From positions 1 to 40,823 of IMG/VR virus record IMGVR_UViG_3300032296_004021: a stretch of DNA of 40,823 nt, one strand, 5' to 3'. The stretch comes from a virus. Shown here piece after piece: positions 2,641 to 35,407 of the stretch. The notes under the pieces were generated by a model that worked only from the letters and a program-made list of their open reading frames with translations, was not told the origin of the DNA and ran no database searches. Numbering within the stretch: position 1 is the stretch's first letter; every line of letters begins with the position of its first letter. Made by a program: the position numbers and the translations under genes.

Positions 2641-3039
2641 TCATAACTCGATTGGTTCTAATCCATTTTTTGTTCTGTAGTCATTTATTGCAGCTTTTAT
2701 TGCATCTTCGGCTAAAACACTACAATGAATTTTGACAGGAGGAAGATTCAGTTCTTCCACGATTTCCATATTGTCAATTTTAACCGCCTCATCGACTGAT
2801 TTTCCTCTCAACCATTCGGTTGCCAAACTTGAAGAAGCGATTGCTGACCCACATCCGAAAGTTTTAAATTTTGCATCGGATATTACACCCTCCTCATCCA
2901 CTTCGATTTGTAATCTCATGACATCTCCACATTCAGGAGCACCCACAAGACCTGTTCCCACATTTTGTTTGGTTTTATCGAGGGTTCCGATGTTTCTCGG
3001 ATTGGTATAATGGTCAATAACTTTTTCAGAATAAGCCAT
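2641..3039 (-). CDS. iscU: Iron-sulfur cluster scaffold protein (IscU/NifU-N-like)
   Basis: This 132-aa protein assembles Fe-S clusters as a scaffold in the Isc pathway. All key residues are present: Cys37 and Asp39 in PECGDVM, Cys63 in FKTFGCGSAIASS, Cys106 in KIHCSVLAEDAI, and the LPPVK motif (99-103) that the chaperone HscA recognises. The N-terminus YSEKVIDHYTNPRNIG is typical. It starts with ATG. A minus-strand TATTTAT box (3060-3066) lies 20 nt upstream, overlapping the box of the divergent gene at 3077. Downstream on the same strand are the exported protein and the IscA-like carrier. No cysteine desulfurase is seen, so host IscS would have to supply sulfur. Confidence 0.95.
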   Translation of the reverse strand: MAYSEKVIDHYTNPRNIGTLDKTKQNVGTGLVGAPECGDVMRLQIEVDEEGVISDAKFKTFGCGSAIASSSLATEWLRGKSVDEAVKIDNMEIVEELNLPPVKIHCSVLAEDAIKAAINDYRTKNGLEPIEL

Positions 3040-6929: not shown

Positions 6930-7934
6930 ATGATTAATTACGCACATGTAATTGTGGATTTGCAAGCGGGTGATACAGGTAAAGGAAAAGTTGCAAATTC
7001 ACTTTTAAAGAAAGGAAACTACACTCATGTCATTAGATATAATGGTGGAGGAAATGCTGGTCACACCATTTATGTTGAAGATAAAATGATTGTCACGCAT
7101 TTTATCCCATGTGGAGTATTACACGGAATCAAATCAATTATTGGACCAGGATGTGTTGTTGACCCATTCAAATTAAACGCTGAAATTGAAAACCTTGAAA
7201 GTATGGGTTTTCGAGTTAGAGGAAATTTATTTATCGACAAAAGAGTTCACATCATAACTCCTGAACACAAAAATGAAGATTCAACAGATACCATAATTGG
7301 AACCACAAAAACTGGTAATGGTCCTGCTTATCGAGACAAATATGCGAGAGTTGGAATAAGAGCAGAAAAGTGGGAAGGTTTGGAAGATATGTTAATTGAC
7401 ATTTATGAAGAACTTCATGGAGAAAAACATGTAAAGGTTTTATTCGAAGGGGCACAAGGAATTGAACTTGATGTAGATTGGGGTGATTATCCATATGTGA
7501 CATCTTCACACTGCACGGTTGGAGGTGCAATTTTGAATGGAGTTCCACCACAAAAAATTCAAAAGGTCTTTGGAACTGCAAAGGCTTACCGAACCTATGT
7601 CGGGAATAAGGAATTTGAAAAGAGTGATGAAAAATTTGACAAGATTAGAGAAATTGGAAATGAGTTTGGCTCGACAACAGGACGAAAAAGACAAATTGAT
7701 TGGTTGAATCTTGACGATTTGATTAAAGCAATTAACATCAATGGTGTAACCGATTTGATTATCAACAAGGTTGATGTTTTGAAAGAGTTGGGACAAGTCT
7801 CATTTCACTATAACGGAAACTTGAGTAATTTCAGTGATTTTGAGTCTTTCAGAAAACTTGTTGAAAATGTAATTTATAACAAATGTAGTTCTGTAGGTGA
7901 TATTACTTTTAGTATGTCCCCTTACGATATCTAA
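6930..7934 (+). CDS. Adenylosuccinate synthetase family protein, short form (PurA- or PurZ-like)
   Basis: The family joins aspartate to IMP with GTP, the first step to AMP. Phage PurZ relatives act on dGMP to make the 2-aminoadenine (Z) precursor. Motifs: P-loop AGDTGKGK (13-20) with catalytic Asp15, GGGNAGHT (39-46) with catalytic His45, GNEFGSTTGRKR (243-254) for aspartate binding, and NKVD (279-282) for guanine recognition. At 334 aa it is about 90 residues shorter than usual bacterial PurA, like archaeal and phage forms. The usual Glu after the catalytic Asp is Thr here. The Asp is kept; as I recall, characterised PurZ replaces it by Ser. So PurA, or an early-branching PurZ, remain open. 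Confidence 0.9.
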   Translation: MINYAHVIVDLQAGDTGKGKVANSLLKKGNYTHVIRYNGGGNAGHTIYVEDKMIVTHFIPCGVLHGIKSIIGPGCVVDPFKLNAEIENLESMGFRVRGNLFIDKRVHIITPEHKNEDSTDTIIGTTKTGNGPAYRDKYARVGIRAEKWEGLEDMLIDIYEELHGEKHVKVLFEGAQGIELDVDWGDYPYVTSSHCTVGGAILNGVPPQKIQKVFGTAKAYRTYVGNKEFEKSDEKFDKIREIGNEFGSTTGRKRQIDWLNLDDLIKAININGVTDLIINKVDVLKELGQVSFHYNGNLSNFSDFESFRKLVENVIYNKCSSVGDITFSMSPYDI

Positions 7935-16779: not shown

Positions 16780-17082
16780 TTAGTTTATTTTACCTAATTC
16801 TTGGAGAACATTTATTTTGGAAGCTAAAGCAGATGATGTGCTGTCGGATTTACGTAGTTGGTCGACTAAAACAGTCACTCTTTGTTCCAAAGATTCGATT
16901 TTTGCATCTTGTTTTTTCTGTATGTCTTGATTAGATAATTTTATATCAACATACAAATAACCAATTGCAATCAAAACAATGAATAACAAACCTTTGACAG
17001 GGTCCTTTGAAAATTCTTTGAATGAAATTGGAGGTTTAATCGCCCCTACGGCGGTGTCTACAGCAGTCTTTTTCGTTGCCAT
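16780..17082 (-). CDS. Membrane-anchored coiled-coil protein of the lysis cassette
   Basis: This 100-aa protein has a polar N-terminus (MATKKTAVDTAVGAIKPPIS), a membrane helix (GLLFIVLIAIGYLYVDIKL, about 31-49) and a periplasmic coiled coil (SNQDIQKKQDAKIESLEQRV and following). It fits an inner-membrane spanin or a pinholin-like subunit. It is the first gene of the cassette and ends 1 nt before the lipoprotein gene. A minus-strand TATTTAT (17151-17157) lies 68 nt upstream, giving a leader of about 60 nt. Confidence 0.65.
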   Translation of the reverse strand: MATKKTAVDTAVGAIKPPISFKEFSKDPVKGLLFIVLIAIGYLYVDIKLSNQDIQKKQDAKIESLEQRVTVLVDQLRKSDSTSSALASKINVLQELGKIN

Positions 17083-17150: not shown

Positions 17151-17186
17151 ATAAATATTGGTTTGAATTGATTTTGTTATATTTAT
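17151..17186. promoter_or_regulatory. Divergent TATTTAT boxes, lysis cassette and PPK2
   Basis: The minus-strand box (17151-17157) faces the lysis cassette and the plus-strand box (17180-17186) stands 18 nt before the PPK2 ATG at 17205. Confidence 0.45.
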
Positions 17187-17204
17187 TGTAAATAAGTTTT
17201 GAGT

Positions 17205-18308
17205 ATGAAGTTAATTTCTGACATAGATAGAATTAGAGAAGTCATGGGAATAATCAAAGAATCCCAACAAGAAGAATATCCAAAGATGAATATGAATTTG
17301 AAAAAAACTGTTGAAATTTTACAGTTTTTAAAACTCTACTCTGGAAAATTGGAAAGAATGCTCGGTGACTTATCGGATTTCGCCAAAAATCAAGTTATTG
17401 ATTTTGATTTACTCGAGAGAGGATTAAGAAAGGTTTTACTGAAAAAAGGAAATAAAGAAAAAAACGTTGAAGAATACTTTTCCAAAGTTTTGAGTTCCCT
17501 TAAATATAGAGAAAGAGCCGGATATGGAACTGAACCTGAAAGTGAAGATTATGAATTCGAGATTGAGGAACCATCTATAATACCAAAAAAAGTATTCAGA
17601 AAAGAACTATATGAATTACAGGTAGAACTTTTGAAATTACAAGAATGGTTGAAAAAAACTGGAAAGACTGTAATCATAGTTTTCGAAGGTAGAGATTCCG
17701 CAGGAAAAGGTTCAACTATAAAAAAGTTTACTGAAAATTTGAACCCAAGATATTACAATGTAGTTGCTCTCGGAGTTCCAACACCAGAAGAAAGAAAAGA
17801 TTGGTGGAATCGTTATAAGAAAGAAATTAAACCAGGAATGATTAATTTCTTCGATAGAAGTTGGTATAATAGAGGACTGATTGAACCTGTTATGGGATAT
17901 GGTAGTCCCGAAGAATATGAAGATTTCATGGAGAATGTAGCAGATTTTGAATCTGATTTAGTTAAAGAAGGAGACTATTTGTTCAAACTTTGGTTTTCAA
18001 TCGAGAAAGATACACAAAAAAGGAGATTTGATATCCGTCAAAAATCACCACTAAAATATTGGAAGTATTCTCCCAACGACGCAAAAATGCAAGACCTTTG
18101 GGACAGATTTACTGAATTCAAAGAAAAATTGTTTGATAAAACATCAACTTTGAATAACCCATGGGTTATCATAGACGCTCAAGACAAAAGAATTTCAGGG
18201 CTCAACGCCATTAGATATGTTCTTCAGAACATTCCATATGAAGGAAAAGATGATAAAGTATTGGAAAGGGAGTATCCTGAAGTTATTGCGGTTCTCAAAC
18301 CTCAATAG
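17205..18308 (+). CDS. ppk2: Polyphosphate kinase 2 with N-terminal tag
   Basis: This 367-aa protein starts MKLISDIDRIREVMGIIKES; a TTG 6 nt earlier is less likely. The first 20 residues match the tag of the protein at 30015 (EINRSREIMG) and contain an IKE-S motif. Residues 21-120 are a helical extension not expected in PPK2. The kinase domain has Walker A EGRDSAGKGS (161-170), NFFDRSWYNRGLIEPVMGY with Walker B (about 214-232), and SPLKYWKYSPNDAKMQDLW. PPK2 moves phosphate between polyphosphate and nucleotides. A phage could use it to make NTPs or NDPs from host polyphosphate. The tag suggests it may be packaged in the virion. Confidence 0.93.
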   Translation: MKLISDIDRIREVMGIIKESQQEEYPKMNMNLKKTVEILQFLKLYSGKLERMLGDLSDFAKNQVIDFDLLERGLRKVLLKKGNKEKNVEEYFSKVLSSLKYRERAGYGTEPESEDYEFEIEEPSIIPKKVFRKELYELQVELLKLQEWLKKTGKTVIIVFEGRDSAGKGSTIKKFTENLNPRYYNVVALGVPTPEERKDWWNRYKKEIKPGMINFFDRSWYNRGLIEPVMGYGSPEEYEDFMENVADFESDLVKEGDYLFKLWFSIEKDTQKRRFDIRQKSPLKYWKYSPNDAKMQDLWDRFTEFKEKLFDKTSTLNNPWVIIDAQDKRISGLNAIRYVLQNIPYEGKDDKVLEREYPEVIAVLKPQ

Positions 18309-18541: not shown

Positions 18542-19168
18542 ATGAATAAGCTCAGAGAATTAATAAGAGAAACTTTAGAAGAGCACCTTGATAAGTCATT
18601 ATTACTTAAAGAAGATGTCAGAATTTCCGAAGCACTCCAATATCACATTGACAACCAAATGAATTTAACTAATAATGTTTTTAGGGCTTATTCTGAAGGA
18701 TATTTTGATTTAGTTAATGAAGTTAGGGAACTTTGGACTAAAGGTTTGATTGAACTAAATGAAGAAGATACATTGATGGTAGAATCAGATTTAGGTAAAA
18801 GGGTGAAAATAAATGGAGAAATAGTTTATTTGGATGCTCCATTTTTAGTTGAGGACGAAGATGAACAAGATGTTTTGGAAGAGGCTAAACATAGAGGAAA
18901 AAATGTAAAACTTGGAAAACCATTTAGAACACCTGGTGGACCGAAAAAGTTTGCGGTATATGTTAAAAGTAAAAATGGTGGTGTAAAAAAGGTTACTTTC
19001 GGTGACCCCAATTTGAGGGTGAGAAATAAAAATAAAGGGGCGGCAAAATCTTTCAGAGCCCGTCATAAATGTGACCAAAAGAAAGATAGAACAACCGCAG
19101 GATATTGGTCTTGTAATGTTGGTCGATATGCAAAACAATTAGGTCTTTCCTCATCAAATTCTTGGTAA
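18542..19168 (+). CDS. Tagged virion-structural-type protein
   Basis: This 208-aa protein begins MNKLRELIRETLEEHLDKSL, the same tag style as the nuclease-like protein at 11589. An ISE-A motif (RISEALQY) and an LEE-A motif (DVLEEAKHRG, near residue 114) follow; both fit a T4-type prohead protease site. After the second site the protein is very basic: KLGKPFRTPGGPKKFAVYVK, VTFGDPNLRVRNKNKGAAKS, FRARHKCDQKKDRTTAGYWS. That C-terminal module recurs in structural proteins of large phages as I remember it. I infer an acidic pro-region that is cleaved off and a basic, DNA- or capsid-binding mature part. Confidence 0.75.
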   Translation: MNKLRELIRETLEEHLDKSLLLKEDVRISEALQYHIDNQMNLTNNVFRAYSEGYFDLVNEVRELWTKGLIELNEEDTLMVESDLGKRVKINGEIVYLDAPFLVEDEDEQDVLEEAKHRGKNVKLGKPFRTPGGPKKFAVYVKSKNGGVKKVTFGDPNLRVRNKNKGAAKSFRARHKCDQKKDRTTAGYWSCNVGRYAKQLGLSSSNSW

Positions 19169-22613: not shown

Positions 22614-23228
22614 ATGAAAGGTCAAATCAATCTTTTACCAAATGTTGGAGATAAAGTAGAGTGTCTTTACATGGATAAAGAATCTGATGTTCTACCAGGA
22701 ACCATAGGTGAAGTCGTTAGGGTTCAAGAAGACCCATTTGTTGATGATGCGGTTATGATTTATGTAAATTGGGAATCAGGAAGTTCCTTACCATTATTGT
22801 CTGACGCGGATAAATGGAGAGTTCTAAAAAAAGAAAATTTAGAGGAGCAGGCCAATGAACATCCTGAACACGAATTTTTTGCCAATAACACAGAAATTTT
22901 TGAATTCTTCGATTATAGATTCTTATTCAATTATTTAAAGAAAATTCAAGAATCAGGTATTACAAATATGTTTGGTTCCTCTCCTTTACTTTACGCTGGT
23001 GAAGAACATATTGATAGATATTTTGGTGAAGGGCAAGAGGACAACGAGGCTTTCCAAGAAGTTTTGGAGATGGCGGAGGAATCTAAAAGAAAAATGATTC
23101 AAGGTACTATGAAATACCTTGAATCAAAAGATATGGATTTAGAAATGGACAAATTTAATAGTCAAATAAAGAGAATGGCTAGACAAGTTTTAGGAATGTA
23201 TGTTAATTTTTATAACGTATTTACCTGA
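22614..23228 (+). CDS. Protein with SH3-like (DUF4314-type) N-terminal domain
   Basis: This 204-aa protein starts MKGQINLLPNVGDKVECLYM. Residues 10-75 resemble the small beta-barrel pattern of DUF4314: VGDKVECLYMDKESDVLPGT, GEVVRVQEDPFVDDAVMIYV, NWESGSSLPLLSDADKWRVL. The rest is acidic and helical (QEVLEMAEESKRKMIQGTMK). I chose the ATG 4 nt after the TATTTAT box; an upstream in-frame extension lies antisense over the divergent gene. Its last 19 nt overlap the tonB-like gene tail to tail. Function unknown. Confidence 0.7.
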   Translation: MKGQINLLPNVGDKVECLYMDKESDVLPGTIGEVVRVQEDPFVDDAVMIYVNWESGSSLPLLSDADKWRVLKKENLEEQANEHPEHEFFANNTEIFEFFDYRFLFNYLKKIQESGITNMFGSSPLLYAGEEHIDRYFGEGQEDNEAFQEVLEMAEESKRKMIQGTMKYLESKDMDLEMDKFNSQIKRMARQVLGMYVNFYNVFT

Positions 23229-24004
23229 AATGTTATAGATTGTTTTCTATAAGCTTTCACTTGTCTTCCGTTTTGAATTGCTGGGTTCCATTTGGGACCT
23301 TTTTTTATTGCTTTTATTGCAATTTCTTCCATACCATATCCATGTGAAGTTAGAGGTATTACATCACTTATGTTTCCATCTACATCAACAACAAATTGTA
23401 TAAGTGTTGTGTAAATTCCATCAGGTGCACCCTCTTCTGCAGGATTTACATCAGAAAGTGTTCTTTCCAAATATCTCTTCCATTTTTCGACACCACCTGG
23501 AAAACTAGCCTCAATTTCAACCTTCTCAAAGATTTCAGGTTCATATGGAACATCAATAATCCCATTACCAAAATCTGGTACATTATTTATTTGACAGGTA
23601 TCTCCTTTGACATTGATAGTCCCAATTTGAGCGTCACGCATGTCAACTTGAGCTGGTAGAGGTTCAGTTGGTTGGTCAACAATTATTGGTTCGGTAAACT
23701 TAACTGTTGAGGGTTGAGTAGTCTGAACTTCCTTTGGTGGAGGTGGTGGTGGAGGTTTGACCTCTTTTTCTTTAATTTCTGTTATGGTAATTTCAGTGGA
23801 AACATATTTTGGTTTTTCAATAGTTTGGTCTTTTGTTAAACCAAAAGCAAGGATTGATACACCGAAAATACCTAAAGTTACCAAAAGAGCTCTTGAGATT
23901 CTTTTGTTGTAACTTTTTCTTAATTCGTAAGCCCCGTAAAGTTTGTTTTTTCCCTCGAAGACTATGTCTAAATAATCTTGGTTGAGGATGTGTTTTGTTT
24001 CCAT
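23210..24004 (-). CDS. tonB: TonB-like energy transducer
   Basis: This 264-aa protein has all parts of a Bacteroidota TonB. It has the cytoplasmic motif NKLYGAYELRK (20-30), one membrane helix (ALLVTLGIFGVSILAFGL, 39-56), a proline-rich spacer with seven prolines (84-90) and a C-terminal TonB domain (about 163-264: SFPGGVEKWKRYLERTL, GIYTTLIQFVVDVDGNISDV, AIKAIKKGPKWNPAIQNGRQ). TonB carries proton-motive energy from ExbB/D to outer-membrane receptors. It is very unusual in a phage. It could keep nutrient uptake running during infection or act as a decoy that blocks TonB-dependent phages or toxins. No ExbB/D gene is near. Confidence 0.92.
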   Translation of the reverse strand: METKHILNQDYLDIVFEGKNKLYGAYELRKSYNKRISRALLVTLGIFGVSILAFGLTKDQTIEKPKYVSTEITITEIKEKEVKPPPPPPPKEVQTTQPSTVKFTEPIIVDQPTEPLPAQVDMRDAQIGTINVKGDTCQINNVPDFGNGIIDVPYEPEIFEKVEIEASFPGGVEKWKRYLERTLSDVNPAEEGAPDGIYTTLIQFVVDVDGNISDVIPLTSHGYGMEEIAIKAIKKGPKWNPAIQNGRQVKAYRKQSITFQVNTL

Positions 24005-24062: not shown

Positions 24063-25226
24063 TTAATTTGATAAAGGTGCTTTAATTGATGGGTGTGATT
24101 GATAATCGACCAACTCTATTTGATTGGGATTAATTTTATCCCAAAGAATCTTGTAACCATCCATGTATTCGAAATCAAAATTTAAATTGACATTTGGTAA
24201 GTCATAAGAACTTCTTGTAATTTGTTCTTTGGCTTGTTCGATGTGATTTGAATATAGATGTGTGTCTCCCAAATTTCCAATTAATTGGTCAGGAACCATG
24301 TTCACTTCTTTGCTGAGCAACATCAGAAGTAAACCATAAGAAGCAATATTGAACGGCAATCCCAAAAATGTATCAACAGAACGTTGATTCCACATTAAAG
24401 AGATTGCTCTAGTTGGAAATTGTGCTTTATCTAATTGCTCCTTTACTTCCTTAAACACCCACTCTGGCTTTTCGTAATCCCATCCCATTTCATTTTCAAT
24501 ATGATTTTTCCACTCAACACATTTCGGGTCATTAGACCATTTCAAGTATGCATCACATCTTTCTTTCAAACTCAACTCTCTTGTATAAACTTGAAATCCA
24601 TAATGACAGGGGGGTAAAACCATTTCTTCGAGTTCAGCGACATTCCAAGCATTCACCATAAGTCTTCTTGAATCAGGATTGGTCTTAAGTTGATAAATTA
24701 GAACTTGAATTTGGTCATACCAAATTGAACCTTTCCTATTATTGTCATTCAAATCCAACCAACCTTGCCATTTTCTCCATTGTTTACCATAAATCGGCCC
24801 TAACTCACCCCAAATTTTTGCAAAATAATCATCAGTCTTTATTTCATCAATAAAGTCTTCTTTTGACATTACAAGAAACTCTTTGAGTTCTTTTGTGTCA
24901 TGATTAGGTTCGGAGTTGTCATCAATACTTTTTTCGATTTTTTGAACATAATTTTTATAAGCATCACCGTCCCAAATATGACAACCATTATCCACAAGAT
25001 ATTTGATATTTGTATCACCATTTAAAAACCACAGTAATTCTGTCACCATAGTTTTCCAAGCCATTTTCTTGGTGGTTAGGAGGGGAAATCCTTCACTCAT
25101 ATTATGACGGATTTGTCTTCCGAAAACAGATAAAGTTCCAGTTCCTGTCCTATCTGTTTTTTCTACACCATTATCAAGTATGTCTTGAAGTAAAGATTGG
25201 TATTGTTTGTCTATGGAGTTTTTCAT
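24063..25226 (-). CDS. thyA: Thymidylate synthase (ThyA type) with two insertions
   Basis: The enzyme methylates dUMP to dTMP with methylene-tetrahydrofolate. Motifs are DRTGTGTLSVFG (25-36), FPLLTTKK (47-54), ELLWFLNGDTNI (63-74), GPIYGKQWRKW (143-153), the nucleophile Cys207 in LPPCHYGFQVY, and NQRSVDTFLGLPFNIASYG (280-298). At 387 aa it is much longer than the usual 264. One insertion lies near 90-138. Another of about 55 residues (217-272, ERCDAYLKWSNDP... region) separates the active-site cysteine strand from the RSVD motif. The start overlaps the stop of the lipoprotein gene. Supplies dTMP for phage DNA synthesis. Confidence 0.95.
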   Translation of the reverse strand: MKNSIDKQYQSLLQDILDNGVEKTDRTGTGTLSVFGRQIRHNMSEGFPLLTTKKMAWKTMVTELLWFLNGDTNIKYLVDNGCHIWDGDAYKNYVQKIEKSIDDNSEPNHDTKELKEFLVMSKEDFIDEIKTDDYFAKIWGELGPIYGKQWRKWQGWLDLNDNNRKGSIWYDQIQVLIYQLKTNPDSRRLMVNAWNVAELEEMVLPPCHYGFQVYTRELSLKERCDAYLKWSNDPKCVEWKNHIENEMGWDYEKPEWVFKEVKEQLDKAQFPTRAISLMWNQRSVDTFLGLPFNIASYGLLLMLLSKEVNMVPDQLIGNLGDTHLYSNHIEQAKEQITRSSYDLPNVNLNFDFEYMDGYKILWDKINPNQIELVDYQSHPSIKAPLSN

Positions 25227-26437: not shown

Positions 26438-27895
26438 ATGAAATTATGGGGAATTGGACAAATTTCGAGCTCTGAAAAAGACGACATTTTGTCAAAACAC
26501 AAAGAATTATATAACGGGTATAAAACATTATATCCCGATACACCAAATACTCAACCAATGTATACCTATGATTTTGCAGGTGACAAAGGTGGATTAGTTG
26601 TTAATAACAAAGGAGAAGTAAAACCATATACAAATTTTGGAATTAACGAATCAAAACAAGTTTGTTCTGAATGCGGAACCCCTTTGATGGAAGGTGAATG
26701 TATGGAATGTGGATGGAAGGGAGACATGCAAGAGTTAAGTCCGATGGATTTAATGAAAGGTGATAAATACAAATATAGTTCTCCATCATTTGAAGATGAA
26801 ATAGAATTCGACACCGAAGTTGAAGACAAATCTGGAGGAAAACCGATGTTCAAATTTAAAGGAGAAAAGGCTCATCACTTAATGGGAGATACAGATGTTG
26901 AAACATTTATTTCTTCACTTGATGAAGAAAAAGAAATGTGTTCAGAATGTGGTGGAAATATGATGGAAGGTGAATGCATGGAATGTGGTTGGAAGGGAAA
27001 TATGGAAGAAACTGAATGCAAAGAGTGTGGAGGTCCTGTCATGGAAGGGCAATGTATGGAATGTGGTTGGAAACAAGCTGATTTGGACCCTAAAGGAAGA
27101 TTTGATTATACAGATTGGGGTAGCAACCGCGAAGGAAGTTTTGAGCAAATGCACCACATGAAAGAAAGTGCAACATCAAACGCTCCATTATCTTATGGTA
27201 GACATTACGATGAGGTTAGAGAACCTTATAATTTCAAATCAAATGGTCCTGTAGGAGATGGTGGAACTTTGAGACAAAAAGACATTAATGAGGTTGGTTA
27301 TACAGGAGGTGGAAACGCACCTGTTTTTGAACCTGAATTTGACGCATATGATTTTGAAAGTGATGGACCAGTCGAAGATACATTTACAATAGATGCTCCC
27401 GATATGGATTTAGACCCAAAAGAAGTTAAAAAACCTTATAAGTTTATTTCACAAGGTGCTGAAATTGGAGATGCATATCCTGTTAACGAAGATGACACAG
27501 AATGGGAAATGATGGAGTCCGCTTGGGCTGATGAGTTGGATGAAGTTGATGTATCAGGTTCACAAGGAGTTTATGGGGATACCAAGAAACCTTATGCATT
27601 TGTTAGTGATGGACCAGGTGGAGCTGGACCTTACCAAACTCATAGTTGGGGTGGTCAGGAATTAAGTGAAGAAGACCCACAAGGTTATGAGGGAGAAGAT
27701 GAAGACGCATATTGGGAGTTAGATGTGGATGAAGTTAACCCTGATAAAATCAATAAAGATGCAACTTGGCAAGAAATCACAGACCTCACAGGTGAAGATG
27801 AATTCGCTCATGTTGACGAAGAATTACAAGAAAGTTTCCAAAACCAAAGAAACAAAATTAACGAGATGTTCTTACGAATGAAAGTTATAAAGTAA
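26438..27895 (+). CDS. Zinc-ribbon and tandem-repeat protein, tagged
   Basis: This 485-aa acidic protein begins MKLWGIGQISSSEKDDILSK, followed by HKELYNGYKTL; the SSSEKDDIL part resembles the EEK tag class. Three zinc ribbons follow with the pattern CxECGxxxMEGxCMECGWK: Cys76/79/88/91, 168/171/180/183 and 194/197/206/209. Then come four PYxFxSDGP repeats (about 262-273, 303-313, 331-340, 383-393) separated by acidic linkers. The C-terminus, FQNQRNKINEMFLRMKVIK, is a helix like the tags. The protein is likely a scaffold or assembly hub with repeated short binding motifs. I know no family. Confidence 0.75.
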   Translation: MKLWGIGQISSSEKDDILSKHKELYNGYKTLYPDTPNTQPMYTYDFAGDKGGLVVNNKGEVKPYTNFGINESKQVCSECGTPLMEGECMECGWKGDMQELSPMDLMKGDKYKYSSPSFEDEIEFDTEVEDKSGGKPMFKFKGEKAHHLMGDTDVETFISSLDEEKEMCSECGGNMMEGECMECGWKGNMEETECKECGGPVMEGQCMECGWKQADLDPKGRFDYTDWGSNREGSFEQMHHMKESATSNAPLSYGRHYDEVREPYNFKSNGPVGDGGTLRQKDINEVGYTGGGNAPVFEPEFDAYDFESDGPVEDTFTIDAPDMDLDPKEVKKPYKFISQGAEIGDAYPVNEDDTEWEMMESAWADELDEVDVSGSQGVYGDTKKPYAFVSDGPGGAGPYQTHSWGGQELSEEDPQGYEGEDEDAYWELDVDEVNPDKINKDATWQEITDLTGEDEFAHVDEELQESFQNQRNKINEMFLRMKVIK

Positions 27896-28581: not shown

Positions 28582-30006
28582 ATGAGTAAGATAGATACTT
28601 TAAATGAAGAACTGAATAGAATTAGAACAATAATTTATGGTTCAAACCAAAATTTCTTGATAGAACAAAATGATGATTATTATTCTAGACAAGATGATTG
28701 GAATGAAAAATACAAGGCAATTAAAATTCCACAGAATTTAAAGGGAGGAGATGAATTGGCGGTACCAAAAAACACAAAAGTGAATTATTGGCAACCAAAC
28801 GATTCCAGAGTTCAATCGTTTTTCAAAGATTGGGAAGGTTCTATATGGGCCAAATATATCCCGAAAGAAAAAGATTTAGAACAAGTATTACCTGATGGAA
28901 CCGCACGTAATTTTTTTATATTCGAAGAAAAAAAATGGTATTACTCGCGAATCAAACGAATAGGGGGGAATGAGTATGGCCCTTGGAAATTAAATTGGTA
29001 TTATGACACAGAAGGAAATCCTTATGACCCGAAAAAATTTGCAGAAGGTTTAGTTGATGATAGGGGTTTTTTAGAAAGAGCGTGGGAATGGATTAAAAAT
29101 AATTGGAAGTCGATAGCTGAAGAGCTTCTTTGGGCGGTAGCCGCTGTAATCGTTGGAGCCTTAACTGGAGGTATAGGTGCTGAAGCAGTTTACGGTGTAA
29201 GAGCCGGTATGGTTGTGGCAACGATATTAGGAAGAGCAATTACTTATAGGGCTTTATGGAGATATTTGGGTGAAGCGGGAGTTTGGACTATAAAAGGAAT
29301 GATAAACATAGCCAACGGAAAAGAGGAATCAGGTGCGATTGATTTGTTATTTGGATTATTATTACCCGCGGTTCATGGTCTTGGCATAAATTCTTGGGGA
29401 TTAAAAGTGACTGAAGAAGAAGCTCTTTCACTAGCCACTAAACTTGTTGGTAAAACAGAGGCAGAAGTGATGGAATTATTAACAAAATCGGTAGCCGAAG
29501 GGGGTTTATCAAATGCGGATAAAAAGATTTTTAGACAACTTTTAGAATTAAATCCTCAAAAAGTTACTGAACAAACGAAGGCAGTTTTTAGAGAAATTAA
29601 TAATAGACTAATAGAAAGCGGTAAAGACCCAAGAACTGTTGCCGAACTTTCAGGACTAGTCTCAAAAGAAAGTATCCAAGCATTGGGAGACTACATACAT
29701 GCAAGGTGGTTCAGAAGGTTACCTGCTTATTTTATACATGATATGGTTGCAATTAATTATTTTAAAAAAATATTTGCAGCATTTGGACTTGAAGATGAGC
29801 CTGATATGGATGCATTTCAAGACGCCATGTTTAAGGCATACCAAACCGCTCCTGATAAAAACGAATTCATTAAACAAACCACAGAAATAATAAATAATTC
29901 AAAAGATTCTACCGCACTCATTAATTATTTTGAACAAAAAGGTTATATAGATACGAGTAAAATGAATATTCCTGTTTTGGAAAAAATTTACAACATTGAC
30001 AAATAA
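28582..30006 (+). CDS. Large tagged virion-type protein with hydrophobic segment
   Basis: This 474-aa protein starts MSKIDTLNEELNRIRTIIYG and continues SNQNFLIEQNDD; ELNRIR and the LIE-Q motif link it to the tags at 17205 and 30015. An N-terminal domain rich in Trp (WNEKYKAIKIPQ, WYYSRIKRIGGNEYGPWKLN) precedes a hydrophobic region (EELLWAVAAVIVGALTGGIG, then TIKGMINIANG), which may be membrane-active. The C-terminal half is helical. I chose the ATG at 28582, 10 nt after the small gene. The mix of a tag and a hydrophobic stretch fits an internal or ejection protein. No known family. Confidence 0.7.
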   Translation: MSKIDTLNEELNRIRTIIYGSNQNFLIEQNDDYYSRQDDWNEKYKAIKIPQNLKGGDELAVPKNTKVNYWQPNDSRVQSFFKDWEGSIWAKYIPKEKDLEQVLPDGTARNFFIFEEKKWYYSRIKRIGGNEYGPWKLNWYYDTEGNPYDPKKFAEGLVDDRGFLERAWEWIKNNWKSIAEELLWAVAAVIVGALTGGIGAEAVYGVRAGMVVATILGRAITYRALWRYLGEAGVWTIKGMINIANGKEESGAIDLLFGLLLPAVHGLGINSWGLKVTEEEALSLATKLVGKTEAEVMELLTKSVAEGGLSNADKKIFRQLLELNPQKVTEQTKAVFREINNRLIESGKDPRTVAELSGLVSKESIQALGDYIHARWFRRLPAYFIHDMVAINYFKKIFAAFGLEDEPDMDAFQDAMFKAYQTAPDKNEFIKQTTEIINNSKDSTALINYFEQKGYIDTSKMNIPVLEKIYNIDK

Positions 30007-30014
30007 TTATTAAT

Positions 30015-31931
30015 ATGGAAAATTTATTATTAGAAATTAATAGAAGTAGGGAGATAATGGGTTTAACCCCTAATATTATTTTGGAATCAAATGGATTTAA
30101 AATTGCATATGATTTTTGGAATAAGGTTGTTAAGAGAAGTGGTTCTTATGATGCTAAAGTTATGCAAAAGGATGTGGAAAAAGCCCTCACTAACGGAGGT
30201 GCTGGTGTAGAAAAGGCTTTGTTTAGAAAAACACTTATGCATCTTTTGGAGAAAACCACATTAACTGCGGAAGAAAGATTATTTGTCTCTGCTTTAGTCA
30301 GAAGATTTTTCACTCAAGAAATTACTGACATGGTAAATGGAATAAAGACTAAAGTTTTGGCCAATCAAGGAGGAAATCCAACTTTATGGAACAAAATGGT
30401 AACAGACCTTTCTGACCCAAATCTCACAACCGAATTTTTGACACAAAGGTTGAATCCCGCATTCAATGGGCAATTGACAGAGCTTCAGGTGCAAATGTTA
30501 AGAGATTTTGTATCACAATCTCCCATAACATTAAAAATACCAACAACAGTTCCTAATAAAATATTTAACGCAGCAGAAAGAGACATGTTATTAATGAATA
30601 GAGCTTGGGAGGATATCAAAGTTTGGGATACTGATGCAATTAATAAATTAAGAAGTAGAGCACCTGAATGGTGGAAAAAATATCAAATCTTTTGGAAAGA
30701 AGTTAAATTGATGTTTGGGGGTCTGAATAAATTAGTAGAGGAAACTCAACAATTGATTAAGACATACGAAGAAATGGCAGTCAAAGACCCAGTAGTTCTT
30801 GACCAAATAGGAGAAAATTTCAAGTTGATTGCAAGAAAAAGGGCGGACACTTATAGATACTTAAAATCTTGGTATGAAAATAATATACCGCAATCTTCCA
30901 TGATTTCTGACCACTTCAAAAGAGCAATTTTATCTAATAATTCTTATAAAGCAGCGGAAGCCTTTATTTTTAATGATGCGGAAAGAGTTAAATTTAGAGA
31001 GGAAAACGGTTCATTATCTCAAAGATTAACTAAAGCCAGAAAAATGTGGATGAAGTTAATGTTTCAAGAATTAGCGGGTATTAAATTAATATGGAATAAA
31101 TTGTTTGGTGATGGTAGCAGGTTGAAAAACTTTGTTTCAGACCCAAATTTTAAATATATGTTAAATGAGTTCGGGTGGGGAATGACATTATCCCCTGCTC
31201 AAATAAGAAAAATGGCAGAACTTTACGGGATTCCGAAAGTTTTATTGTACCAAATTCCTAAAGAATTATTAATACAATATGTAATAATAAGTGCGATATT
31301 CAGTTTTCTTAATCTTTTAAAGGATTCACTTTTAGGTTCCGTTGTTGGTTTAGAAAGATGGCAAAAAATGAAAGAAAAGTATGGTGAAACTGTGGAGTAT
31401 AAAAAGAATGAACAAGGTTTGAATGAAAAAGTAGAGAAGGATTTATCTTGGGTTCAGCAATATTGGAACTACATCAAAAATAGAGTTACGAATACTAATC
31501 TTGAAGGAGTGGCTGGTTTGGTTCCTGGACGTTGGGATAATCTTGTTCTTTCTGTAGACGATGCTATCTCTTCGATTGTTGAACTCAGCAGTACTGAGGG
31601 CAAAAGATTTAGACGAGACATTCAAGATACTTTTACTAATACTGGAAACCAAATTGATTCAGTAAGACAACAAATCAATACAACTTTAGAAAATAGAGCG
31701 AACGAAGCACAAAAAACAAATGTTACAGGAAACCTTCAAAAAGTTAAAGATTGGTTAACCTCGAAAACTCTGACTATCAAAGAAATGTCACCAACGACTG
31801 ATGGATTCATATTATATAGTGTAGAAACTAACAATAATGAACTATATAGTTTCCAATTTGATGAAACGGGTAAAATTATAAAAATCGAAAAGATTGATGC
31901 GGAAGGTAATATTTCTAATTTAGATATATAA
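30015..31931 (+). CDS. Large tagged virion-type protein
   Basis: This 638-aa protein starts MENLLLEINRSREIMGLTPN, followed by IILES (ILE-S after residue 24), the same leader type as PPK2. The body is helical and basic, with many Lys and Arg (REENGSLSQRLTKARKMWMK). One moderately hydrophobic stretch (LIQYVIISAIFSFLNLLKDS) lies near residue 425. The C-terminal part is coiled (RRDIQDTFTNTGNQIDSVRQ). It follows the 474-aa gene by 8 nt and precedes the 910-aa gene by 3 nt. Likely an internal head or ejection protein; no known family. Confidence 0.7.
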   Translation: MENLLLEINRSREIMGLTPNIILESNGFKIAYDFWNKVVKRSGSYDAKVMQKDVEKALTNGGAGVEKALFRKTLMHLLEKTTLTAEERLFVSALVRRFFTQEITDMVNGIKTKVLANQGGNPTLWNKMVTDLSDPNLTTEFLTQRLNPAFNGQLTELQVQMLRDFVSQSPITLKIPTTVPNKIFNAAERDMLLMNRAWEDIKVWDTDAINKLRSRAPEWWKKYQIFWKEVKLMFGGLNKLVEETQQLIKTYEEMAVKDPVVLDQIGENFKLIARKRADTYRYLKSWYENNIPQSSMISDHFKRAILSNNSYKAAEAFIFNDAERVKFREENGSLSQRLTKARKMWMKLMFQELAGIKLIWNKLFGDGSRLKNFVSDPNFKYMLNEFGWGMTLSPAQIRKMAELYGIPKVLLYQIPKELLIQYVIISAIFSFLNLLKDSLLGSVVGLERWQKMKEKYGETVEYKKNEQGLNEKVEKDLSWVQQYWNYIKNRVTNTNLEGVAGLVPGRWDNLVLSVDDAISSIVELSSTEGKRFRRDIQDTFTNTGNQIDSVRQQINTTLENRANEAQKTNVTGNLQKVKDWLTSKTLTIKEMSPTTDGFILYSVETNNNELYSFQFDETGKIIKIEKIDAEGNISNLDI

Positions 31932-31934
31932 TTT

Positions 31935-34667
31935 ATGAAGAAAAAAAATTTCATATTCGAACAAAGCATGTCAGATGCGGAGAAAAAGAGGTACGATTTT
32001 TTAAAGTCGAGAGGATGGGAAGATGCTCCTGCTGCTGATTTTGTAAGAAAAAAAGATGATTATGATTACACAAGTATAAATGCATTTGTATTATTAAGAA
32101 AGAAAAAAAGTTTACAGCCATTAGATGGTGACTCAACAAAATTTTTAGGAAAATATAGTGGAAAAGATTTTTTTTCTAAATTTGAAATAGTTCAGGGTTC
32201 AGAGGGTTTAGAAATAAAAAAATCTGCGGCAAAAACTAAACTTATTAAAACATCTGATAACAATTTTGAAGGTAAAATTATTGGTATCGATTTTGCAATA
32301 GAATTTGACGTTGAAGGGGAGAATGTTAAAGGAGGGACGATTCTATATAATCAGTTAGGAACAGAAAAAACTATACAATTTACCAAGGAATCACAAACTC
32401 CACCACCTCAGCCTGACCCGAACCAAAAACCGTCATCTTGTACTGATACATCTGAATGGGCGTGTATTGAAAAATTTGCATGTAAATATAATACTGACAC
32501 AGAGAAGTCTTCAGATGGTAAACAGAGAACATTATATGGAGGTGAAAATAATGAAATTGCAATTATTTTCAATCAAGATAAAACTTTAATTTATAGAAAA
32601 AAGGGTTCTTCTGACGCTTCAGGTAAATGGAGCTGTTCAGGGGATATTTTATATTATGAATTTCCTGATGGTAAAAAAATAAAGTGTGAAGATGGAAATT
32701 GTAAAGTTGATTCTCCAGGAAGCGGTAGTACACCGAGTCCCGAATCAGATGAGAAATCTTGTGAGACTCAAGTTGATTGCTCAACTATAGATGTAGATGA
32801 TGTTTTAGATGGAAAGAAAAGTTATAAGATGTGTATGAAATGCTCGACGATAAAAGAAATACAAGAAATCCCTGAATTCAGATTAAAATATTTTTATAAT
32901 CTTCGACAAGCCGGAAAACCTGAAATTACAGACAATATATTTGGTCCAATTATGAAAAAAACTGTTGAAGAATATCAAGACCAATATTTTCTTAAGATTG
33001 ATGGGATAATAGGGAAGGAAACTTTGTCAAAACTTTTAAACGTACCGATTATGGAACAGAAAAACAAAAAAAATATACTATTAGAACAAACTTCGATAAG
33101 GTCGAGAATTGAAAAAGAAGGATATAAATGGATTGAAGTTAAACAAGCCTTCGAAAAAGAATTTGCTAGTAAAGGGTTTCCGATGGGAAGTAAAGAAAGA
33201 AACATGCAACTTTGGAGTGAGTGGAGCAAAAATGGTTGGAGACCCAAAAAAAATGAACCCACACCTATTAATCCTGTAAAAGATGAACCTATACAAGATG
33301 ACCCCGAAGGTTTAAAAACGGCAACTGAAATTTTCACACAATCAGGTGTTATTAATTGTTTGAAACAACTCAAAAAATATCAATTAGTTAACGAAACTCC
33401 TCAAAAGGGAACTAATGGTTATTATTTGAAATTAAAAAATATTGGTACTTATACCGACCGTGAGTATTTTTTCTATACAGACGGCTCATTTAAAAAACTA
33501 TGGGGAAGACGAGGTCATGTCACCATGACTGCAGAACAAATGAAAGAATCAGGGTTTTGTCCTGAATTCTTTCAGTATTTAGAAAAAAGAGCCATAGGAA
33601 CTTCAGGTTCAGCAGGAACTAGTGGTTCGGCTGGAACAAGTGGTTCAGCGGGAACATCAGGTTCGGCAGGCACTTCGGGTTCAGCGGGAACATCAGGTTC
33701 GGCAGGCACTTCGGGTTCAGCGGGAACTAGTGGAAATTTGACAAAAAAGGATATAAGACAGTTAACAAAAAAAACCAAAAAATTACAAAGGGGAGAAAAA
33801 ATCAACAAAAGACAATGTAGATTAAGTATTGAACAATACTACAAAGCTTATAAAGGCGGGTTTACTTTGGAGGACTTTGAAGATACCAAACAAATTGTTA
33901 AAACCTGTATTGCTCAACACGGTGAAGATTTCGACAAGGACACAAATGATAAGGTGTATGAATTAAAAAGGATTAACAAGTATTGGGATGCGAAATATAA
34001 ACCTTTCCAAATTGTTGATTCAATTAAAAAAAGAAATTCAATTATAAAAGAAACTCTGAAAGAAAAATTATTTGAAATTTCAGAGCAAAAACAAAACTTA
34101 CAATTTAAGAAAAATATTACTGAAAGTAGATTAATTCCATTCGTTGAAAACATAAAGAATTTTAAAACTTCATCTTTTGATAAAAAAGTAAAAACAGGAT
34201 TCAGATTTATCAAAGAGGTTTCACAATTGAAGAAGAATAATATTTTATCTGAAGAATTGGGAGATGTTTTCAAAGGTCTATTTGGAGACTCGTTCTCGGG
34301 TCTATTAGACACGATGGCTAAACCAATGATTGATTCAGTTCTTTCCAAATTGGAAATTCCTCAAGGGATGAAAGAAGAAATTCTCACCAACATTTTGAAC
34401 AATAAAGTAGAGTTGTTAGAAAACATAAACTCTTGTGATGATTTTTCAAATTTTATATCACAAGAAATGTCTTTAGTTATCTCCAAAAAAGTTGAGTCCG
34501 AATCAATAACGGGAAATCAAATGATTGATGATTCAATAATTGAACTTATGACAAGTGAAAACTTCCAAGAAATTCTCAACGAGCATATCAAAACAGAAGT
34601 ATGTGATTTATTCGACAAATATGTCGAAAACGCGAAGAATTTGATTACAAAAATCACCCAAGATTGA
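31935..34667 (+). CDS. Large tagged protein with peptidoglycan-binding-like domain and GTSGSA repeats
   Basis: This 910-aa protein begins [20 protein letters not shown], with IFE-Q as a possible cleavage site. A Cys-containing lipocalin-like beta region follows (about 140-250). A PG_binding_1-like domain lies near 300-370 ([40 protein letters not shown]). Next, [20 protein letters not shown] repeats the N-terminal pattern with LLE-Q. A flexible GTSGSA linker (7.5 units) separates the helical C-terminal third, which has ISE-Q and ITE-S motifs. I infer a multidomain precursor cut into pieces during head maturation; the peptidoglycan-binding part suits cell entry. Confidence 0.75.
33597..33734 (+). 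repeat. 18-bp tandem repeat coding for GTSGSA
   Basis: Seven units of 18 bp (each GTSGSA) plus a partial GTSG unit. Copies differ at third codon positions (GGA ACT AGT, GGC ACT TCG and others), so protein sequence is conserved more than DNA. It forms a flexible linker in the 910-aa protein. Confidence 0.9.
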
Positions 34668-34716: not shown

Positions 34717-34743
34717 AAAAGAAGGGTTTTTAACCCTTCTTTT
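34717..34743. terminator. Bidirectional terminator between the virion-type operon and clpP-like gene
   Basis: AAAAGAAGGGTT (34717-34728) pairs with AACCCTTCTTTT (34732-34743). The stem has T-runs in both directions and includes the stop codon of the ClpP-like gene. Confidence 0.88.
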
Positions 34744-35407
34744 TTGTTTTAACAATTTCATCAATAATTCCGTATTCAAGAGCCTGTTGGCTATCCAACC
34801 ACAAGTCTCGAGTTGCATCTTGTTTAACCTGTTCAGGGTCTTTCCCACAATATTCACCAAGAAGTTCAAAAAGTGTGTTGTTAATCTTTGACCACTCTTT
34901 CATGGAGATTTCGGCATCTTGGATGTTACCAACCGCACCTCCTGATGATTGATGAAGCATGGTTCGAGAAAATTTAAGTGAGCTTCGTTTTCCCTTTGTT
35001 CCTGCACCGAGTAAGATTGAACCCATAGAAGCTGCCATACCTGTATTTACAGTTCGGATGTCACAGGCAATATAATTCATAACATCGACCATAGACAATC
35101 CTGATTTAACAGAACCACCAGGTGAATCGATATGCATCGTGATGTCGGTTTTATCGGAATTATCCAAGAACATAAGTTGGGCTTGGACAATTGTAGACAT
35201 TCTATCATCAACACCACCAGCAACCCATATAATCCTATCACGCATCAAACGAGAGAAAATATCAATTTGAGTTGCCCTCATTTCTCTTTCTTCCAAGATA
35301 TAAGGAGTCATGGAAGATTCAATTTGCGTTAGATGATTGTGAAGGTCCAACGAACCTTTACCCAAATGTTTTACATAGTAGTTTTGAAAATCTTGTCCGA
35401 TTGTCAT
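34730..35407 (-). CDS. clpP: ClpP-like serine protease
   Basis: This 225-aa protein has the ClpP fold signature: HIDSPGGSV (92-100), NTGMAASMGSILL with the nucleophile Ser127, TMLHQSSGG with His152, and RDLWLDSQQALEYGIIDEI with Asp201. Host ClpP degrades proteins with an AAA+ partner. Phage ClpP-like proteins are used either as head-maturation proteases or as host-like proteases. The HQP of usual ClpP is HQS here. It should be cytoplasmic. As no other prohead protease is visible in the window, it is a candidate for processing the tagged proteins, though true prohead proteases of T4 type belong to another fold. Confidence 0.93.
   Translation of the reverse strand: MTIGQDFQNYYVKHLGKGSLDLHNHLTQIESSMTPYILEEREMRATQIDIFSRLMRDRIIWVAGGVDDRMSTIVQAQLMFLDNSDKTDITMHIDSPGGSVKSGLSMVDVMNYIACDIRTVNTGMAASMGSILLGAGTKGKRSSLKFSRTMLHQSSGGAVGNIQDAEISMKEWSKINNTLFELLGEYCGKDPEQVKQDATRDLWLDSQQALEYGIIDEIVKTKKKG

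Follow-up and report, generated by a model that had tools for sequence, protein, structure and literature searches.

Does a phage that encodes a polyphosphate kinase use the enzyme in the cell where it is made, or does it carry the protein within its virions into the next host? The question is raised by an open reading frame of 367 aa at positions 17205-18308 (plus strand) of a 40,823-nucleotide stretch of viral DNA – here called the window – which is a whole virus record of 40.8 kb and probably a fragment. The initial annotation, made from the sequence alone, proposed that this frame encodes a polyphosphate kinase 2 (PPK2) with a virion-type leader that is injected at the start of infection.

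By family the product belongs to PPK2, and by similarity it is class I-like. The start is an ATG at 17205; a TTG lies two codons upstream at 17199, and relatives use the ATG. Pfam domain PF03976 covers residues 128-350 (E 5e-71; 239.3 bits vs a cut-off of 22.3), which bears out the domain itself and moves its start from residue 135, as first proposed, to near 128. The class I-like assignment of this core (17586..18254, plus strand) draws on PF03976, the nearest structures and the TIGR03707 score. Among solved structures the nearest are class I enzymes from Francisella and Sinorhizobium, with E values of about 1e-61 to 1e-65 for class I and about 1e-20 to 1e-26 for class III; the lowest E belongs to the two-domain PA01 protein 3czp, but is a sum over two domains. 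In Foldseek alignments the kinase cores of FtPPK2 (Francisella tularensis) and SMc02148 (Sinorhizobium meliloti) are 40-46% identical to that of the phage protein and have its Walker A and FDRSWYNR motifs in common. Because the score against NCBIfam TIGR03707 (272.7 bits) is below the equivalog cut-off of 301.8, we use the name class I-like, not equivalog. The catalytic motifs had been described as intact, and Walker A GRDSAGKG (162-169) and FDRSWYNR (216-223) are indeed invariant at nearly all positions in 27 aligned phage copies; as GxDxxGKG and FDRSWY they align with the solved class I enzymes. By codon comparison no other part of the protein is as constrained as the core (pN/pS 0.12). At least 104 IMG/VR stretches encode PPK2 relatives, the best 80 of them at 65-87% identity. 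The window fragment also carries genes for a PurZ/PurA-like adenylosuccinate synthetase (6930-7934) and a thymidylate synthase (24063-25226), as well as Fe-S assembly proteins (Fe-S_biosyn and NifU_N), a cyclophilin, ClpP protease and a TonB C-terminal domain protein (together at 1442-1774, 2641-3039, 413-859, 34730-35407 and 23210-24004).

Compared with class I enzymes, the phage PPK2 adds a leader, a spacer and a small helical domain, all absent from its 80 nearest cellular relatives. The leader (17205..17261), delimited by conservation, pN/pS and a structure model of the protein (mean pLDDT 71), comprises a helix at residues 2-14, MG and the hxE site IKE-S; it reads MKLISDIDRIREVMGIIKE, then S, with a predicted cut after Glu19. 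The IKE-S noted early on within the first 20 residues is confirmed as a hxE site after a 15-residue helix, and nearly every one of 40 dereplicated phage PPK2s keeps the pattern M-x-L-L-x-E-I-x-R-I-K-x-V-M-G followed by hxE. The leader is under constraint and the spacer much less so (pN/pS 0.46 vs 0.80, codon comparison). A start codon set artefactually far upstream was considered and rejected, the leader being both constrained and conserved. Beyond the leader lie a spacer (residues 20-27; 17262..17285) of variable length and sequence in the alignment, a four-helix domain (about residues 28-100; 17286..17504) recognized by its predicted fold, compact at 30-100 in the model, and to which cellular homologs do not align, and an acidic flexible linker (residues 101-127; 17505..17585) evident from the alignment, all on the plus strand like the leader; pLDDT is below 50 at residues 14-26 and 102-119.

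When modelled alone (80 aa) the helical domain reaches a pLDDT of 87, and in this data only phage PPK2s have one, with a related region in megaphage PPK2s. The structural search that had been proposed for a known N-terminal module gave no confident PDB match for the 80-aa domain (best Foldseek E 5.8; best VIA Z 5.7, to ParB, a match that may be due to chance). For most of the 80 nearest cellular PPK2s, homology to the window protein begins at about residue 124-131. None of the 80 has the leader, and the proposal that the N-terminal module is common among cellular PPK2s is rejected; the initial annotation had named a wide occurrence of the first 130 residues in cellular PPK2s as what would speak against it, and the comparison did not bear this out.

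The same leader, designated leader B, is found on unrelated proteins. MKLISDIDRIREVMGIIKE of PPK2 matches MENLLLEINRSREIMGLTPNIILE of a 638-aa protein at 30015..31931 (plus strand), both followed by S, and scored with a profile derived solely from PPK2 leaders they reach 33.1 and 22.4 bits, in agreement with the early proposal that the two proteins bear one tag. In 1.94 Mb of related phage DNA this profile (13 columns; threshold >15 bits) has 96 matches, every one of them no more than 6 aa away from a start codon; there are none in cellular loci (0.52 Mb), Flavobacterium phage immuto (0.16 Mb) or T4 (45 kb), and a single, internal match in an unrelated megaphage (300 kb). The start-adjacent position of the matches and the near-empty controls argue that the leader is shared beyond chance. 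The matches in related phage DNA, every one N-terminal, fall into 13 protein clusters, namely PPK2 and 12 unrelated ones, one of which is that of the 638-aa protein. Among the proteins so tagged are an M23 peptidase, a glucosaminidase and an ATPase-like protein, as well as one with a weak match to a dual-specificity phosphatase and two that are weakly ParB-like. In 90% of tagged proteins a hxE site falls in the 12-aa bin directly behind the leader; the figure for later bins is 14-56%.

Within the window, the 638-aa protein has no match among phage records or the loci compared here, and a 474-aa protein (28582..30006, plus strand), for which a family search gave none, has by sequence a leader-B-like start, MSKIDTLNEELNRIRTIIYGSNQNFLIE, then Q. 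The 910-aa protein at 31935-34667 has a leader-like start and combines GTSGSA collagen-like repeats with a peptidoglycan-binding domain; hxE occurs at several places inside it. Conserved beside PPK2 is a 208-aa protein (18542..19168, plus strand; phrog_7595, E 7e-13) with a leader of its own, MNKLRELIRETLEEHLDKSLLLKE, then D; homologs occur in 77 of the related loci, and in 26 of the 40 dereplicated ones they follow PPK2 at a distance of no more than 600 bp, and the protein is a possible partner co-delivered with PPK2. Two 300-kb genomes, G001 and G004, have many ORFs whose leaders are of other kinds but end similarly, such as KLTESDLxRLVKRVIKE then Q, and MKYIITExQxKxLxE then Q, although counts under strict patterns are lower. 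Classes of the forms LTESDL..VIKEQ, YIITExQ..SEQ and LIKKxLxEE, with hxE at their ends, are present on dozens of ORFs in G001 (L098-L114) and G004 (L115-L130), which make up a candidate ejected proteome, mostly of proteins of no known function. FLRMK or MLRMK forms the end of the scaffold protein and of a conserved zinc-ribbon protein, and occurs solely at the C-terminus (four hits, about 0.1 expected; G001 105182-106759 and 154532-155764, G004 68007-69461, window 26438-27895); this ending resembles RIKxVM of leader B, and the two may bind the same head partner.

A gp21-type prohead protease is present in eight of nine large contigs with related PPK2 and gp23 in six of the nine, accompanied in large relatives by portal, scaffold and terminase; neither gp21 nor gp23 was seen on the 40.8-kb window fragment, for which both are inferred from the relatives. 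Of 11 more distant contigs, all of them fragments, 8 lack a gp21 match. The predicted maturation site of the relatives' gp23, HLINE then A or S, resembles the leader ends, as against FLTE then A in T4 gp23. Phages with a leader-B PPK2 are T4-like, with hosts of Bacteroidota type. One contig (G005, 268,739 bases) has two gp21 and two gp23 genes, either because the assembly merged two phages or because the genes are truly duplicated.

In T4, leaders send proteins to the prohead core and are then removed by gp21, and the T4 capsid-targeting leader (CTS) can be used to package foreign proteins (PMC9958956, PMC5694885 and PMC3012670). The phages described here resemble the T4 CTS system in having a short N-terminal leader that ends in hxE, gp21 and gp23 homologs (in relatives), diverse cargo with the leader as its sole common part, and an enzyme as cargo (Alt in T4). 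They differ in the leader itself – LLNEIxRIKxVMGxxxE for leader B, whereas T4 IPII and IPIII start MKTYQEFIAE then A – in having a polyphosphate kinase as cargo, and in the relatives' several classes of leader and much larger number of tagged genes. Since leader B shares the properties of the CTS but not its sequence, we consider it CTS-like in working and not a T4 CTS. A further parallel is with SPN3US and phiKZ, in which many internal head proteins are processed by the prohead protease and targeting by a propeptide is supposed; these propeptides often exceed 100 residues, compared with about 20 in the window PPK2, and no PPK2 is noted among the internal head proteins in the available part of the source (PMC5694885).

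A late-type promoter-like element, TATATTTA (17178..17185, plus strand), lies 27 nt before the PPK2 ATG. The motif, [ACGT]TATTTAT or TATATTTA, shows strong enrichment ahead of genes in each of the two large genomes, and precedes 34 of 39 PPK2 genes at 13-40 nt from the ATG, compared with a mean of 5 and a maximum of 10 in 200 rounds of dinucleotide shuffling. It is found before 29/38 tagged and 12/18 structural genes, and before 0/15 replication or nucleotide-metabolism genes (structural vs replication, Fisher P 5e-5); related sequences are not independent, so these P values are guides. Gene classes were set by similarity to immuto, and 'late' is a label from gene function. Ahead of structural and tagged genes TATTTAT reads in the sense direction; the T4 late box TATAAATA has TATTTATA as its reverse complement. 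The window has the element once more, at 17151-17158, facing the divergent gene at 16780-17082.

PPK2s of more distant phages carry leaders of other kinds. Contig scans with the window protein as query found nothing, and those with an alignment as query gave the cellular set; the PPK2 of contig L136 as query found no viral relatives, and a second alignment (A2) did. Megaphage PPK2s (LR756502, LR745206 and LR756501) are 38-50% identical and start MINNFIKFINE then E, MPVYNFHKFINE then E, and MISNYDNFMNE then S, and these leaders do resemble the T4 CTS. In LR756502 (300 kb read) the leader motif is N-terminal 25 times, vs 2.4 expected from the rate elsewhere; this genome has a gp23 above the curated cut-off, with FHQINE then N close to its N-terminus, and a gp21-like match below cut-off. 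Further viral lineages from a mixed-alignment scan have leaders with FLREE, FLKEE, FLNES, FVVES, ITEGFF or ISEGFF. A hxE in residues 5-25 is present in 38/40 window-family PPK2s, 27/30 distant viral PPK2s with a short N-terminus (a set that includes a few window-family members) and 24/69 cellular PPK2s, and because of this last, background rate we do not count hxE alone as evidence.

On distant viral contigs PPK2 also lies within polyprotein-like fusions of 533 to at least 1285 aa (L273:1071-4415, L288:1080-4934, L280:1827-3734, L312 and L315), several with hxE at the PPK2 borders. Three long ones (636 to at least 1285 aa) have hxE then GFF at the border, which is the exact leader-end position of three standalone PPK2 copies, and one long fusion (L288) also holds a peptidoglycan-binding domain. 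The L280 fusion ends with an HExxH-like stretch (RHEMEH). These arrangements suggest that the fusions are packaged polyproteins cut by a prohead protease.

The account that we favor, and consider likely as a whole, is that PPK2 would be made late in infection by a T4-like phage, drawn into the prohead by its N-terminal capsid-targeting leader and cut there after Glu19 by a gp21 homolog. The mature protein – small helical domain and kinase core – would stay in the head with the DNA and be ejected with it into the next host, where moving phosphate from host polyphosphate to NDPs would sustain the NTP supply before phage genes are expressed. The injected-kinase proposal of the initial annotation thus gains partial support, with comparison strongly supporting the capsid-targeting tag: gp21 and gp23 occur in relatives, the sites are of cleavage type, leaders of CTS type are lineage-specific, hxE marks fusion borders, late-type elements precede the genes, and 0/80 cellular PPK2s have the leader. 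Packaging in the virus head is on these grounds highly probable; that the enzyme is also ejected and does its work in the new host is a good prospect, if a somewhat less secure one. Class I PPK2 enzymes are held to favor NTP formation, and we lean slightly towards that direction for the phage enzyme.

Alternatively, PPK2 could be an ordinary auxiliary metabolic gene whose product acts in the cell after expression, its leader being incidental or a localization signal for somewhere other than the capsid. Most known phage-borne metabolic enzymes do work intracellularly, and the thymidylate synthase and PurZ-like genes of the window are without such leaders. We nonetheless think this improbable, given a constrained leader common to unrelated proteins, an element that PPK2 has in common with structural genes and that replication and metabolism genes lack, and the other CTS-type leaders that other lineages bear on PPK2.

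Two further readings accept packaging and differ in what the enzyme is for. PPK2 might be packaged and cleaved but have its job in the producing cell or prohead – in assembly, as a core component, or in handling polyphosphate or nucleotides during packaging – with ejection incidental. All of the packaging evidence fits this equally, and because FLRMK, at the end of the scaffold protein and of one conserved protein of 485 aa, resembles RIKxVM of leader B, tagged proteins may be core components. The invariant catalytic residues and highly constrained core are those expected of an enzyme, however, and tagged cell-wall hydrolases and other enzymes suit ejected proteins better than core parts; we regard a role confined to the producing cell or prohead as very improbable. 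Injected PPK2 could instead serve counter-defence or control, draining host polyphosphate (stress signalling) or refilling nucleotide pools emptied by abortive-infection systems. The packaging steps are the same as in the favored account, all packaging evidence fits, and T4 internal proteins are described as a diverse defence set that includes IPI against GmrSD (PMC3012670); however, no defence system is linked to the gene, and by sequence this purpose looks the same as simple NTP supply. We consider it possible but unlikely.

The open-access literature yielded no virion proteomics or N-terminal sequencing for phages of this PPK2 family, no virion proteome for immuto or its relatives, and no study of a virion-packaged or phage-specific PPK2, although absence there is not proof; the statement in the initial annotation that no virion-packaged PPK2 had been described agrees with this. 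What would be new is the PPK2 cargo and the leader class, the principle of delivery being already known. A broader proposal, for which we see even chances, is that virions have been equipped with an injected PPK2 time and again, in T4-like phages of Bacteroidota-type hosts as well as in several lineages of megaphages, each with its own capsid-targeting leader and some with a packaged polyprotein from which the prohead protease frees PPK2 and other effectors, and that host polyphosphate spent by the enzyme powers the first minutes of infection. If the account is correct, the leader profile, hxE and the late-type element would together give a sequence-based list of ejected proteins in uncultured T4-like phages, with dozens of candidates predicted per genome, most of unknown function. 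These phages would also bring their own energy-metabolism enzyme in with the DNA, and host polyphosphate stores would be tied to the success of infection.
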